Positions 11,183 to 28,040 are shown, counted from the stretch's first letter. The stretch is DNA of 36,536 nt from Candidatus Omnitrophota bacterium (GCA_023819605.1 JAMWCB010000003.1:1-36536); one strand, 5' to 3'. Program-made: numbers and translations. Notes: a model not told the origin generated them from the sequence alone.

Positions 11183-11653
11183 TCAGATTATTTTTTTTGA
11201 AAAAATCAACAAATCATCGTGCGCGCTGTAAAAACCGGAAATGCGGCCGACCAGCGCATAACCGTTTTTCTCGTAGAGCTTACAAGCCGGACCATATTCC
11301 GCGCGCGAAGACGTTTCAATGCGCACCACGGATTGCTGCGCGAAGAGTTGTTCGCGCATATGCGCTTCCGCCTGAGCGATCAAGCGCGTACCGATACCGC
11401 GGCTCTGGATTTTTTTATCGACAACCACCCAATAAATATCCCAGGCTGCCGCCGTCAAGGGAGTGCGGCCATAAAGAATAAATCCGGCCGTGCGGCCGTC
11501 CACCGCTTCTTCCCGGTAAAAATATTTTTTTTCGCCGTTATTCCGGTAATCTTCCAGGATTTCCCGCAATATATCCGTCTCATGCGCGCCGAAGACGCCG
11601 GTTTCCTGCGCCATTTTTACCAAAGCAAAAATTTTCGCTTCATCGATGAGCAC
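11183..11653 (-). CDS. GNAT family N-acetyltransferase
   Basis: WVVVDKKIQSRGIGTRLIAQAEAHMREQ matches the GNAT acetyl-CoA motif V...(Q/R)xxGxG/A. Probable GTG start at 11653, overlapping the end of the upstream ATP-grasp gene; the longer track ORF runs antiparallel domain space into that gene. Confidence 0.85.
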   Translation of the reverse strand: MLIDEAKIFALVKMAQETGVFGAHETDILREILEDYRNNGEKKYFYREEAVDGRTAGFILYGRTPLTAAAWDIYWVVVDKKIQSRGIGTRLIAQAEAHMREQLFAQQSVVRIETSSRAEYGPACKLYEKNGYALVGRISGFYSAHDDLLIFSKKII

Positions 11654-12641
11654 CGCACACCGCCTGTTCAATAATTTTTTGAATGACCTCCGTAAATAAC
11701 CATCCCCGCGCGGCCGCCTGCCGCATAAAACCGCTGTCGTCGTTGATATCCGGATTGGGATTGACGTCGATGACCGCCAGCTCGCCGCCCCGCGCGCGCA
11801 GATCAACCCGGCAATACCCGCGGCAGCCCAACGCCTGCGCCGCCGCAGCGGCAAACCGCCCGATACGCTGCCGCGCCGCCGTTGGGATATCCGCCTGCGG
11901 CGAAGGCGTCAGCTTTCGATATTCCACACTGGCCGTATCCCATTTCGCGGCGTAGGTAAAAAACGGCCGGCATTGCGGCGCCGCCGCGAAATCCATCACC
12001 GAAATTCCCACCTGCTCGTACGGCGCGCTGCCGAGCAACCCGACGTTATACTCCACCCCGTCAAAAAATTCCTCCACGATCAAGCCGGCCGGGTGATTTT
12101 TTAATTTTTTTTCGATGCCGGCGCGGGCGGATTGCCGGTCGCCGGCCCATGATTCCGCGTCAATCCCGACGCTGCCGTCTTCGGCGCCGGGTTTGATAAA
12201 TAACGGGTACCGTAATTGCGTATCGCTAAACTCATCCAACCGCCGGACCAGCACGCCGGCGGGAACCGGGATACCCTGCCGGCGAAGCTCCTCTTTTGCC
12301 TGATGTTTCTGCAGGCACACTGCTAATGCGGCGGAACCGTTGCCGGTAAACGGAATCCGTGTTTCTTCCAGGAGGCGCGCAAAAACGACTTCCTGGCCGG
12401 AATCATCGCAAAACCCTTCAAAGAGATTAAAAATACACAGCGGCGAATTTTGCCGCAACCGAGCAACCAGCGACGCGCCGTTTTCTTTCAGATCATGCAC
12501 GCGCACGGCAAACAGCTCGGCGGCATACCCGCGCTGCCGCGCGGCGTCCAGCACATTGCGGGCGCAGCGCAGCGCGTCCGCCGTATCCGGACGAAATGCT
12601 TGCTCTTCGGCAACCGTGACTAAAAGCTTTTTCTTGTTCAT
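11640..12641 (-). CDS. D-Ala-D-Ala ligase-like ATP-grasp ligase (second copy)
   Basis: ATP-grasp motifs: YPLFIKPGAEDGSVGI, LIVEEFFDGVEYNVGLLG, CRVDLRARGGELAVIDVNPNPDIN. Confidence 0.85.
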   Translation of the reverse strand: MNKKKLLVTVAEEQAFRPDTADALRCARNVLDAARQRGYAAELFAVRVHDLKENGASLVARLRQNSPLCIFNLFEGFCDDSGQEVVFARLLEETRIPFTGNGSAALAVCLQKHQAKEELRRQGIPVPAGVLVRRLDEFSDTQLRYPLFIKPGAEDGSVGIDAESWAGDRQSARAGIEKKLKNHPAGLIVEEFFDGVEYNVGLLGSAPYEQVGISVMDFAAAPQCRPFFTYAAKWDTASVEYRKLTPSPQADIPTAARQRIGRFAAAAAQALGCRGYCRVDLRARGGELAVIDVNPNPDINDDSGFMRQAAARGWLFTEVIQKIIEQAVCGAHR

Positions 12642-13648
12642 GACCGCGCACAGCCGCAGCGAGCCAAGGAAAGCGCGAGCAATTCCTGCACAAAAACGCT
12701 GAAATCACGCCGGTGCAAGCCGCACATAAGCATCAAATCGCTATAGTTGGGGGAAAGCCCGGGCAACGGATTGATGTCGATAATTTTCGGAACGCCGGCG
12801 GCATCCAGACGAAAATCGATCCGGGCGATATCCTTAAGTTCCAACGCGCGGAACGCTGCCTGCGCGAACGCCTTGATCATCTGCGTTGTTTCGCGGGGCA
12901 AAATTTCCTCGGCCTTTTCATATTTTATTTTTTCCTGCCACGCGCGTTTATGTTCCAACGAATAGACAAAAAATGCGTTCGCGGTATGCCGCGGCGAAAT
13001 CCGCATCATGCCCACAATCATCGGCTCGGCATTGCCATACACCCCGACCGTCACTTCATCGCCGGGAAGAAATTCCTCGATCAGCGCCGGCTGGCCGTAC
13101 TGCTCCCGGATAAACGCCGTTTTTTTTTCGATGGCGGAATAGTCTGCCGCGACCGAATCCGAAAAAATCCCTTTCGACGATCCCTCCCAGCGGGGCTTGA
13201 CGATAAACCGTCTGCCGTCAAAACCGGCGGCCTGCCGTTTAAGATCGGCCGGCCCGGCAGCCATAACCATATCCGGCACCGGCACACCGGCGTGCTTAAG
13301 CATGACATTGGCCAGATATTTATCGAGGGCTATTCCCAAGGCAATCGCGTCGGAACCGAAGTAAGGTATCTGCAGCCATTCCAGAAGACAGGGGATTTGC
13401 GACTCCCGGCCGCGCGTTTTTCCGCGGCCTTCGGCAATATTCAAAACGAATTCCGGCTTTTCGCTGCGCAGGCGCGCGAACACCGTTTCATCCTGTTCCA
13501 GCCGGACCGCGGTATATCCCATTTTTTCAATTTGCCGCTGGAGGAATTCTATGGTTTCTATTTCGTCGTATTCCTCGTCGCAATCGCCGCCGGAATGTTC
13601 GCGGCGCAAATTATAGGTGATCCCGATACGGCGGATCTGTTTATTCAC
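12638..13648 (-). CDS. D-Ala-D-Ala ligase-like ATP-grasp ligase (first copy)
   Basis: IPYFGSDAIALGIALDKYLANVMLKHAGVPVP, RFIVKPRWEGSSKGI, LIEEFLPGDEVTVGVYG, RIDFRLDAAGVPKIIDINPLPGLSP. ATGA overlap with the next gene. Confidence 0.88.
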   Translation of the reverse strand: MNKQIRRIGITYNLRREHSGGDCDEEYDEIETIEFLQRQIEKMGYTAVRLEQDETVFARLRSEKPEFVLNIAEGRGKTRGRESQIPCLLEWLQIPYFGSDAIALGIALDKYLANVMLKHAGVPVPDMVMAAGPADLKRQAAGFDGRRFIVKPRWEGSSKGIFSDSVAADYSAIEKKTAFIREQYGQPALIEEFLPGDEVTVGVYGNAEPMIVGMMRISPRHTANAFFVYSLEHKRAWQEKIKYEKAEEILPRETTQMIKAFAQAAFRALELKDIARIDFRLDAAGVPKIIDINPLPGLSPNYSDLMLMCGLHRRDFSVFVQELLALSLARCGCARS

Positions 13649-13671
13649 CGGCTGCCTCCCTGATTCAGATG

Positions 13672-13700
13672 AAAGGGGAATGTCTCAGACATTCCCCTTT
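13672..13700. repeat. Perfect inverted repeat (14-bp arms, 1-nt centre) between kamA and the first ATP-grasp gene
   Basis: AAAGGGGAATGTCT-C-AGACATTCCCCTTT. Confidence 0.85.
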
Positions 13701-13729
13701 ACCTGCACACGAATCCTCATACGGCGTTC

Positions 13730-14899
13730 TTATCCCTGAGGATTATAGTACTGGATCACCTCATTTTTATAATTACGCAGGGTAACCTGATCTTTGGCCA
13801 GGGAGATCAGATAATTCGGCCCCAGCGGAATCTTGCCTTTGCCTTCGGTGCCGTCAACCACGAACGTCGGGATGCACATACCGCTGGTATGCCCGCGCAG
13901 CTTTTCGATAATCTCAATGCCCTGGTACACGGACGTGCGGAAGTGATTGGCCCCGACCACCGGGTCGCACTGATACAAATAATACGGCCGCACGCGAATG
14001 GCCTGCAGCTTCTGCATGAGCTGTTTCATGACGTCCGGATTGTCGTTGACGCCTTTAAGCAGCACCGCCTGGTTGCTCAACGGAATACCGCAACGCTGCA
14101 GTTTCCGGCAGGCTTCCGCCGCCTGCGGCGTGACTTCCGCCGGATGGTTAAACTGCACATTGATCCAGAGATTTTCATATTTTTCCAGGATACGGCAGAG
14201 CATGGCATCGATCCGCTGCGGATTGACCACCGGCGTGCGCGTGCCGATGCGCATGACTTCTACGCTTTTAATCTGCCGGATTGCCGAAAGAATATAATCC
14301 AAGCGTTCCGAATGCAGCGTCAACGGATCTCCGCCGGAGACAATAATTTCCCGGATCTGCGGCTTATCTTTGACATAGCGCAGCGCCTGATCGATTTCGC
14401 GCAGCGACGGCTCGGCATTTTTCGCTTTCCACAAACGCTTGCGGGTGCAATGCCGGCAATACATGAAACACCGCCCGGTAACCAAAAGCAGCGCCCGATC
14501 CGGATAACGATGGACCAGAAACGGCGTCACCGATGTTTTCTCTTCCGCCAACGGATCCATCGTTTCATGCTCGTTCTCCCGGATTTCCTCCAGGGACGGA
14601 ACGCATTGCCGGCGAATCGGGTCATGCGGATCCATAACATCTTTGATCAACGACAGATAATACGGCGTAATCAGCATTTGGTACGATTTTATCACCTGCT
14701 TGAGCGCGATTTTTACCTGTTCATTTAACGGGAGATACTTGGCAAGTGCTTCGATACTGGCGATAGGATGCCGAACTTCTTGGGTGGACGAAGGTATTTC
14801 TTTTAGGCAAAGCTTCGTACTCGGAGGCTCTTCAAAGTTAGGCTCCGGAGGTTCCTCTGACTTCTGTTCTGTTTTTTTCACCAACTTTTCATTTTCCAC
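13730..14899 (-). CDS. kamA: KamA-family radical SAM lysine 2,3-aminomutase-like protein
   Basis: Radical SAM CFMYCRHC (CxxxCxxC); IIVSGGDPLTL; RIGTRTPVVNPQRI; RVRPYYLYQCDPVVGANHFRT; GHTSGMCIPTFVVDGTEGKGKIPLGPNY. Confidence 0.92.
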   Translation of the reverse strand: MENEKLVKKTEQKSEEPPEPNFEEPPSTKLCLKEIPSSTQEVRHPIASIEALAKYLPLNEQVKIALKQVIKSYQMLITPYYLSLIKDVMDPHDPIRRQCVPSLEEIRENEHETMDPLAEEKTSVTPFLVHRYPDRALLLVTGRCFMYCRHCTRKRLWKAKNAEPSLREIDQALRYVKDKPQIREIIVSGGDPLTLHSERLDYILSAIRQIKSVEVMRIGTRTPVVNPQRIDAMLCRILEKYENLWINVQFNHPAEVTPQAAEACRKLQRCGIPLSNQAVLLKGVNDNPDVMKQLMQKLQAIRVRPYYLYQCDPVVGANHFRTSVYQGIEIIEKLRGHTSGMCIPTFVVDGTEGKGKIPLGPNYLISLAKDQVTLRNYKNEVIQYYNPQG

Positions 14900-14955: not shown

Positions 14956-14983
14956 ATATTAATTATTTTTAATTAATTGTCAA
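14956..14983 (-). promoter_or_regulatory. Candidate promoter of kamA with a palindromic spacer
   Basis: Minus strand TTGACA (14983-14978), 16-nt spacer, TAATAT (14961-14956); TTAATTA-TTTT-TAATTAA palindrome at 14959-14976. Confidence 0.6.
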
Positions 14984-25769: not shown

Positions 25770-26144
25770 TCAGCGCAAATCATCGGACAGGTCGTAGCGG
25801 ATCAGCGCCAGTATCGCCGCGTGCGGCACAATCACATATTTTACATTTTCGAATTCGAATTCCACCGCGGCGCTGCGCAGGAAAATCGCCCGGTCATGCT
25901 CGCGCGCCTGCAAAGGCACATAATGCGGCGTCGCCGCCTCGCGGGCTTCGGCCCACGGTTCTTTGTGCAAATCCTGAGGATCGGCCACCGGCGTACCCGG
26001 CCCGACGCTGACCACCTTGCCGCTATGGACTTTTTCCTTCTCGTACGTTCCCTGGGGAAGATAGAGCCCGGAATTGGTCATTTCCTTTTGATCATCGGGC
26101 TTGATCAGCACCCGATCGCCGACGATTATCAATTCGCGCTTCAT
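25770..26144 (-). CDS. GroES/Cpn10-like protein
   Basis: IIVGDRVLIKPDDQKEMTNSGLYLPQGTYEKEKVHSGKVVSVGPGTP is Cpn10-like; divergent extended C-terminal half. ATG at 26144. Confidence 0.82.
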   Translation of the reverse strand: MKRELIIVGDRVLIKPDDQKEMTNSGLYLPQGTYEKEKVHSGKVVSVGPGTPVADPQDLHKEPWAEAREAATPHYVPLQAREHDRAIFLRSAAVEFEFENVKYVIVPHAAILALIRYDLSDDLR

Positions 26145-26459
26145 GGTAGAGCGTATTATAACACACAATCATGGCAAGAAAAAAATTTTTTGGGCACTGT
26201 CTAAGCGGAAAGCAGGAATAATTTTCTGTGCGCCGACAGAGAAAGTTATCTTTGAAATGGCAATGCTAATGGTGGCCATACGCCAAACTGAGCAACCAGC
26301 AAAAAATAATCAACAAAAATGAGCAAAAATGTACTCTATCCGGTATAATTATTGCTGAAACTTGGATAACAATCGTGCCTAAAAGCGTACCCGTGAAATT
26401 ACGGGATCAACACATGTATTCACGTTAAACGAAATTATAAACACAACCATCGGTAACCA

Positions 26460-27299
26460 ATGAAAAAAAATACGTTAACAATTTTTACCTGCCTGCTTTT
26501 TACGGCCACCATTCCCCATCAAGCTCTTTGTGCGTCATTTCTTTCGCCTCGCCTATCAATTAATCAAAAAAATTTTAATAATACCATTGCCGCGCCTTAT
26601 CCAGATCGTGCGATAATAAATCCATCCTCTCTCCCTACCATGGTTGATCTGGATATTTTAGAAGACACGGTTTTTTCCGGAAAAACAGAAGAAGTTTATT
26701 TAATGATCCAGCAGGCGACCGCAGCCAATGATCATTTCCTATGGTTTATTCCGGAAGAAGATGACGACGATAGCTTTTTAAAGTATCAACCGGAATATAA
26801 TAATGTCGCTCTTTCCGTAAAGGGACAAATTTTTGCTGATAAAATAACCGCGCAGATACAACAATTCGCCGATCGGTATGATTTTTCTTAGGATATCTAT
26901 GAACATCCCTTCGCACAGATCGCGGAAGAACTGCTTTCCAACCTCTGGCGGCACTCTAACGCGTGGGGCATATTTGCCGTTCGGCTAATCCCCAAACCCG
27001 GACAAAGTGAAATAATTCTCGAAATCAGCCTTATTGACCATGGCGATGGCATTGATGATATCGATGCGATATTAGAAGGCGAATTTGAAAGGAAAGACAG
27101 TCCGGGAGAAGGGATTGCCAATTTAAAAAAAATATATAAAAATTTCGGAATACCCAGCGAGTTCATATTCAACAGCGAAACTCAAAAAAACTATCACGGC
27201 ACCGCCGTAACCATAAAACTATTTTCTCGACAAAAGATTAATACTCCTTTACTCAAAAAAGAAATAAACTATTCACATTTTTTTTCTTCTGCCGTTTAA
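26460..27299 (+). CDS. Secreted protein with a C-terminal GHKL (histidine-kinase-like) ATPase domain, interrupted by an in-frame TAG at 26889-26891
   Basis: Track ORF stops at TAG 26889; the same frame stays open for 135 codons to TAA 27297-27299: DIYEHPFAQIAEELLSNLWRHSNAWGIFAVRL...LEISLIDHGDGIDDI...SPGEGIANLKKIYKNFG...NYHGTAVTIKLF. N, G1, G2 and GT motifs of the Bergerat fold are visible. Confidence 0.7.
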
Positions 27300-27310
27300 T
27301 CTTCTGCTCA

Positions 27311-27541
27311 TCATTTCCCGGTCAACACATCAATGCGTTTTTTATCAAATCCGACAATGACTTCCCCGTCGATCACCACCACCGGCACGCCCATCTGTCC
27401 GGAAACTTCTACCATTTTCTGCGCTTCCGCCTCATCCTGGGAAACATCCACTTCGGTATACGCAAACCCCTTGGCGGAAAGGTACTGTTTGGCAAGTTTG
27501 CAATACGGACAGGTCGGCGTCGAATAGACGGTAATATCCAT
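27311..27541 (-). CDS. Glutaredoxin-like protein
   Basis: MDITVYSTPTCPYCKLAKQYL (CPYC), GVPVVVIDGEVIVGFDKKRI. Confidence 0.92.
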   Translation of the reverse strand: MDITVYSTPTCPYCKLAKQYLSAKGFAYTEVDVSQDEAEAQKMVEVSGQMGVPVVVIDGEVIVGFDKKRIDVLTGK

Positions 27542-27542
27542 G

Positions 27543-28040
27543 CTATCGCTCCTTGTTAAAATAACTTTTCAACTGGCACAATTTCACCAAATGTTTCTTT
27601 TCTTCGCGGATAATCCGGTCAATCACCGGCTGTTGTGCGTTCACGATACGATCGCGCAGCGCGCCATAAGCTAAAATGGAATCCTTTTCCAGCGCGATGC
27701 CGAACTCTACCGCGGCAATTTCCGTAGGAAAATGCTCTTTAATTTTTTGCGCAATCAGCTGCGGCGTGACGATAAACTCCGCGGCGATCGCCTGCATATA
27801 GAGCTCCCACTCCTGCGGACTGTTATCCACCACGACGTATTCCGTCAAATTATCAAGGATCTCTTCAAAAATCTCGCGGTGCCGCACTTCCTCGGCGCGC
27901 AAAAAATGCCAAATACTCCGCACCCGTTCGTCCATGGCGCGATGTTCCAGCGCCGCGTACAGCTGCTCGCCATTGTGTTCGACGTCCACGGCGATTTTCA
28001 GCAACTCCGCCGGACTGATACCCGCGGGAATCTTCTCCAT
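27543..28040 (-). CDS. Ferritin-like / rubrerythrin-domain protein
   Basis: Di-iron-type helices: EHNGEQLYAAL, RAEEVRHREIFEEI, EKDSILAYGAL, REEKKHLVKL. Uses a TAG stop. Confidence 0.82.
   Translation of the reverse strand: MEKIPAGISPAELLKIAVDVEHNGEQLYAALEHRAMDERVRSIWHFLRAEEVRHREIFEEILDNLTEYVVVDNSPQEWELYMQAIAAEFIVTPQLIAQKIKEHFPTEIAAVEFGIALEKDSILAYGALRDRIVNAQQPVIDRIIREEKKHLVKLCQLKSYFNKER

Follow-up and report, generated by a model that had tools for sequence, protein, structure and literature searches.

What is made by a KamA-family radical SAM enzyme whose gene stands beside those of two ATP-grasp ligases resembling D-alanine–D-alanine ligase (Ddl) and of a GNAT acetyltransferase? The question is raised by a stretch of 36,536 nucleotides from a Candidatus Omnitrophota bacterium (GCA_023819605.1 JAMWCB010000003.1:1-36536; contig C64 of a genome of 2.26 Mb, 92.7% complete), hereafter termed the window, in which the four genes form a minus-strand cassette in the order KamA, first ligase (AG1), second ligase (AG2) and GNAT (Table 1). 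The KamA homologue, the two Ddl-like ligases with their overlap of 4 nt (ATGA) and the GNAT gene overlapping AG2, all described in the initial annotation, were found as reported. The evidence presented below suggests as its product a small, soluble beta-lysine peptide or amide that is N-acetylated, and not a peptidoglycan precursor, an interpretation to which we give an even chance.

The KamA protein of the window exceeds the cut-off of TIGR00238 (311 bits against 199), and its best equivalog is TIGR03820, lysine 2,3-aminomutase, for which it scores 456 bits against a cut-off of 525; the C-terminal part of the AblA model has no counterpart in the protein. The KamA of the Acetomicrobium cassette scores above the same lysine 2,3-aminomutase cut-off (583 against 525 bits). 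The nearest solved structure is lysine 2,3-aminomutase 2A5H. Cysteines C144, C148 and C151 of the CxxxCxxC motif align with the cluster cysteines of 2A5H, and R153, D312, D349 and K356 align with R134, D293, D330 and K337, which we take to be, respectively, the carboxylate arginine, the aspartate pair for the epsilon-amine and the lysine that binds pyridoxal phosphate. All seven positions are invariant in 85/85 cassette KamAs, and the cassette enzyme is the sole KamA above cut-off in its own genome. Judged from these alignments, the cassette KamA is very probably a lysine 2,3-aminomutase; the lysine-specific residues being kept, the earlier suggestion that it makes beta-lysine is supported.

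AG1 and AG2 match Dala_Dala_lig_C with 77 and 75 bits, respectively, and both lie well under every curated Ddl cut-off (best scores of 131 for AG1 and 127 for AG2, against 243 bits). AlphaFold (AF2) models of the two ligases display a mean predicted local distance difference test score (pLDDT) of 93.9 and 94.4, respectively, with Ddl structures as the best matches; the AG1 model presents a template modelling (TM) score of 0.86, normalised to the target, to E. coli DdlB (1iow). The metal site is kept by alignment in AG1 (D278, D291 and N293) and in AG2 (D280, D292 and N294). Modelled fold and metal-binding residues together place both proteins among the predicted ATP-grasp carboxylate-amine ligases. 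The N-terminal motif GGxSxExxxS, which binds the first D-Ala, is present in 21/23 canonical Ddl proteins and in none of 42 AG1 and 43 AG2 proteins. These carry C-terminal signatures of their own, NPLPGL in 39/42 AG1 and NxNPD in 41/43 AG2 sequences. AG1, AG2 and canonical Ddl occupy three separate parts of a tree of 123 rows, built by a quick method with support from the Shimodaira–Hasegawa-like approximate likelihood ratio test (SH-aLRT) only, in which 25 Ddl rows constitute one group (SH-aLRT 100). Two rows first labelled Ddl (L033 and L178) grouped instead with AG2-like proteins and do not count as canonical Ddl. A duplicate of AG1 takes the position of the second ligase in several Omnitrophota.

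The association of these genes is conserved. A profile of 58 related genomes, the window's own included and AG1 being counted above 100 bits, comprised 26 genomes with both KamA and AG1, 1 with KamA only, none with AG1 only and 31 with neither (Fisher p = 1.2e-15, uncorrected for phylogeny), and KamA adjoins AG1 in 26/26 AG1-bearing relatives. A scan of species-level genomes revealed 565 stretches encoding an AG1 relative, the best 80 of which, with many incomplete loci ending at contig edges, provide the wider counts. These 80 loci span six or more phyla and belong to Omnitrophota, Auribacterota, Synergistota, Chloroflexota (Dehalococcoidia), Planctomycetota and delta-proteobacterial groups, plus one labelled Actinomycetota; all four genes are present in 47/80, at least two ATP-grasps in 74/80, KamA in 64/80 and GNAT in 58/80. 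KamA is not linked at the remaining 16 loci; 13 of these genomes encode it at full length elsewhere, and in one more a KamA fragment lies at a contig edge. Gene order varies from KamA-AG1-AG2-GNAT in the window to AG1-AG2-GNAT-KamA in many Synergistota and AG-AG-KamA in many Omnitrophota, and in five genomes (L073, L079, L094, L097 and L100) KamA and AG1 constitute one open reading frame (ORF), the fused proteins being 52-63% identical. Because the cassette is conserved, chance can be ruled out as the cause of the gene grouping, and a lack of conserved synteny in related genomes, which would have refuted the initial annotation, was not observed. Apparent KamA-AG1 fusions in L118, L120, L129 and L141 were rejected, their N-terminal stretch being a wrong-frame ORF in GC-rich DNA.

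The cassette includes departures from the two-ligase pattern of the window. At five loci (L119 7029-8018, L140 7993-9054, L142 2790-3857, L042 6155-7144 and L043 9889-10878) a related protein of 330-354 residues follows, of a family that replaces AG2 in some Omnitrophota; its Pfam match is below threshold, the residues read in it resemble those of ATP-grasps, and it is possibly a divergent ATP-grasp. Extra AG-type ligases distant from KamA were observed at L065 (7789-8799), L063 (8027-9277) and L064 (8469-9494), in genomes that also hold the cassette.

The closest solved structure to the GNAT protein is 2R7H, a "putative D-alanine N-acetyltransferase" (E value of 2.5e-17 for the protein alone and 7e-41 with the family profile). 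No tested function was found for 2R7H, and its D-alanine label probably derives from a Ddl-like neighbour.

A four-step pathway can be proposed from these assignments. KamA would, on strong grounds, convert L-lysine to beta-lysine; AG1 would activate one carboxylate with ATP and join beta-lysine to a second amino compound; AG2 would add a second unit or form a second amide bond; and GNAT, where present, would acetylate a free amine, thus lowering the charge of the product. That the product acts as a compatible solute is speculative. Weak hints come from three kinds of neighbour. A small mechanosensitive-channel-like transmembrane protein adjoins AG-AG-KamA in five Omnitrophota loci (L046, L047, L049, L053 and L059; PF05552 tested in L046). 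SulP genes adjoin the cassette in the window and in L037/L068 (one genome). In the window, an operon for trehalose lies upstream of the cassette, with an nhaA-I RNA ~90 nt upstream of the operon (Table 1); trehalose-6-phosphate synthase is an occasional associate of nhaA-I RNAs, for which a Na+/osmotic variant has been suggested (PMC9646797). Such neighbours weakly favour a solute and do not prove one.

Several observations weigh against the proposed acetylated beta-lysine product or its role as a solute. Most Omnitrophota families other than the window's own have a cassette without GNAT, and acetylation is therefore not universal. The specificity of AG1 and AG2 is not readable from sequence. 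Trehalose genes were found near the cassette in the window only and at none of the other loci compared, the cassette has no common Rfam riboswitch ahead of it in 23 loci plus the window, and the other neighbours vary (EF-G, SulP, MFS, MarC, GH77, PIG-L and GNAT fused to a histone deacetylase domain). Many hosts are, by record titles, organisms of groundwater, peat or lakes and not halophiles.

A broader proposal, advanced tentatively and at somewhat less than an even chance, is that Omnitrophota, Synergistota, Dehalococcoidia, Planctomycetota and delta-proteobacterial groups share a widespread, hitherto undescribed pathway of primary metabolism for an N-acetylated beta-lysine di- or tripeptide, which would be a compatible solute or protective metabolite of a new class, and that two ligases left the Ddl family for it. 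If true, this would provide a testable function for genes that, in major uncultured phyla, often bear no label beyond "D-alanine--D-alanine ligase" or "GNAT", and would explain the Ddl-like ligases kept by genomes without detectable murG. The cassette points to an unknown beta-amino-acid metabolite, and it is directly testable because cultured Synergistota carry the whole set (Acetomicrobium hydrogeniformans, L110).

Among the alternatives, the best surviving is that the product belongs to specialised metabolism, for example as a beta-lysine peptide antibiotic, a metallophore or a signal, and leaves the cell through a transporter encoded nearby. Beta-lysine is a component of streptothricin- and capreomycin-type antibiotics, there is a weak match between the window GNAT and 3pp9, a putative streptothricin acetyltransferase (E value of 1.5e-4), and MFS or MarC genes are neighbours at several loci. 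This explanation is nevertheless unlikely: the transporter is not constant, partners of the nonribosomal peptide synthetase or polyketide synthase type were not seen among the neighbours examined, and the cassette is widely conserved in small-genome anaerobes, the 565 AG1 relatives in species-level genomes being more like core or accessory metabolism.

A second alternative, in which KamA and GNAT follow the logic of AblA/AblB, that is, an aminomutase plus an acetyltransferase (PMC1224877), is quite improbable. The two ligases are more constant partners of KamA than GNAT is (74/80 against 58/80 loci), and KamA is fused to AG1 and not to GNAT. For three cassette GNATs, NCBIfam gave no AblB model among the matches at an E value of 0.001, the presence of such a model in the library being unconfirmed.

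Attachment of beta-lysine to a protein such as EF-P is less probable still. EpmA and EpmB are known to beta-lysylate EF-P, some ATP-grasps modify proteins, and in some Omnitrophota the cassette has EF-G-like genes nearby. However, EpmA (TIGR00462) above the curated cut-off is missing in 15 of the 18 genomes tested, that of the window included, where the best match (232 against 287 bits) is a frame of lysyl-tRNA synthetase length; KamA scores 247 bits against an EpmB cut-off of 369, and AG1 and AG2 are of the small-molecule Ddl type. PMC2821294 is a prediction paper on EF-P beta-lysylation.

A role in the cell wall, in which the ligases make D-Ala-D-X or modify stem peptides of peptidoglycan and KamA supplies beta-lysine to the wall, would fit the Ddl fold of AG1 and AG2 and the Ddl enzymes that are their nearest solved structures. 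The absent D-Ala motif and the position of both ligases outside Ddl in the tree speak against it, as does the separate canonical Ddl (184 bits) that the window's genome encodes on contig C69, within a mur cluster in which murG is also found. Moreover, murG gave no match in 14/14 cassette-bearing Dehalococcoidia/Chloroflexi genomes and was present, by the same search, in the window's genome and four others; the 14 are drafts, and a murG missing from all of them is unlikely to be an effect of gaps. In the four Dehalococcoidia for which Ddl-type genes were compiled (G066, G067, G068 and G071), the cassette ligases are the only strong matches. Because 14 Dehalococcoidia with cassette ligases have no detectable murG, a peptidoglycan role cannot be general; as such it is largely refuted, and as an explanation of the cassette it is highly improbable. 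Even bacteria that have no peptidoglycan wall appear to make the small molecule of the cassette. The modified peptidoglycan that the initial annotation had entertained is not supported by these data. A grouping of both ligases with housekeeping Ddl, which would have refuted that annotation, was not observed, the separate mur-linked ddl for which it proposed a check is present, and its view that a plain D-Ala-D-Ala role is unlikely agrees with motif, tree and genome. Least credible of all is that KamA, with which lysine fermentation in clostridia begins, serves that pathway here and is linked to the ligases by position only, given the KamA-AG1 fusions, the near-perfect co-occurrence and the lack of fermentation genes among the neighbours examined.

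The layout of the window cassette adds detail on its expression. The KamA-AG1 gap of 81 nt contains a strong, perfect hairpin, GGGGAATGTCTGAGACATTCCCC, which occurs once in the genome and has a possible role in attenuation or mRNA stability. Because this gap parts KamA from AG1, tight coupling concerns AG1-AG2-GNAT. Homologues place the most likely GNAT start at GTG 11653, resulting in a 14-nt overlap with AG2; the TTG at 11854, from a mechanical ORF listing, was rejected as they favour the former. A candidate promoter, matched by consensus, suggests that the cassette may be transcribed apart from the upstream SulP gene.

Table 1. Cassette genes and other features of the window, numbered from its first nucleotide.
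Feature	Position	Strand	Details
KamA-family radical SAM lysine 2,3-aminomutase (very probable)	13730..14899	-	389 aa
AG1, predicted Ddl-fold ATP-grasp ligase, NPLPGL type, KamA partner	12638..13648	-	336 aa
AG2, second predicted Ddl-fold ATP-grasp ligase, NxNPD type	11640..12641	-	333 aa
GNAT N-acetyltransferase, GTG start	11183..11653	-	156 aa
Candidate cassette promoter, TTGACA, 16 nt, TAATAT	14956..14983	-	10/12 consensus matches; consensus only
Perfect intergenic hairpin GGGGAATGTCTGAGACATTCCCC between KamA and AG1	13675..13697	-	fold z-score -3.0
nhaA-I (lithium-I) riboswitch RF03057	22824-22874	-	47.4 bits
Trehalose operon: cache-domain GT20 (OtsA-like), trehalose-phosphatase, DUF5752, TreT	22735-17794	-	

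Other genes recur beside the cassette. MarC-family genes, checked against Pfam in L100 and L137, follow GNAT at four loci in two phyla, and GH77 neighbours, checked likewise in L071 and L081, were observed at five loci. PIG-L deacetylase genes lie between AG1 and AG2 in L074 (7004-8302) and L127 (7030-8478), and an ORF of like size occupies the same position in L077. In two phyla the cassette is followed downstream by a gene for a protein of ~580 residues with a C-terminal histone-deacetylase/acetylpolyamine-amidohydrolase domain (L066 8432-10168 and L137 9146-10885); the L066 protein has a GNAT match in its N-terminal part, and it is possible that these proteins remove the acetyl group. Elsewhere in the window, GC content drops to 0.44 at positions 26001-28000, all other 2-kb bins lying at 0.51-0.61.

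No description of the cassette was found in the open-access literature, most subscription journals lying outside that search, and Iyer et al. 2009, a study of ATP-grasp amidoligases that was not read, may have noted the neighbourhood. Compared with known systems, the cassette ligases share fold, ATP site and metal site with D-alanine--D-alanine ligase and the Van ligases; in contrast, they lack the D-Ala motif, score under all curated cut-offs, form separate tree groups and occur in genomes without detectable murG. EpmA/EpmB likewise draws beta-lysine from a KamA-family enzyme but employs an aminoacyl-tRNA-synthetase-like ligase instead of ATP-grasps, and the window's genome has no EpmA above cut-off. 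For the GNAT, PDB 2R7H is the nearest solved relative. The N-epsilon-acetyl-beta-lysine pathway of methanogens and some bacteria resembles the cassette in that a lysine 2,3-aminomutase is followed by an acetyltransferase, and the AblA model is the nearest to the cassette KamA; the cassette differs in having two ATP-grasp ligases as core partners, a GNAT with no AblB-model match, and, in the window, a KamA under the AblA cut-off without the AblA C-terminal part. N-acetylglutaminylglutamine amide is made by AsnO and Ngg, a GNAT/ATP-grasp protein. This compound is a solute (PMC1224877), and its pathway also combines an acetyltransferase with an ATP-grasp ligase to yield an acetylated dipeptide. 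The cassette, in contrast, has beta-lysine as its predicted building block, ligases of Ddl type and GNAT and ligases as separate genes rather than a fusion; the neighbours examined included no asparagine synthetase. Judged from sequence, the cassette unites enzyme families already known in a conserved combination that is new, and its product is predicted to be new.

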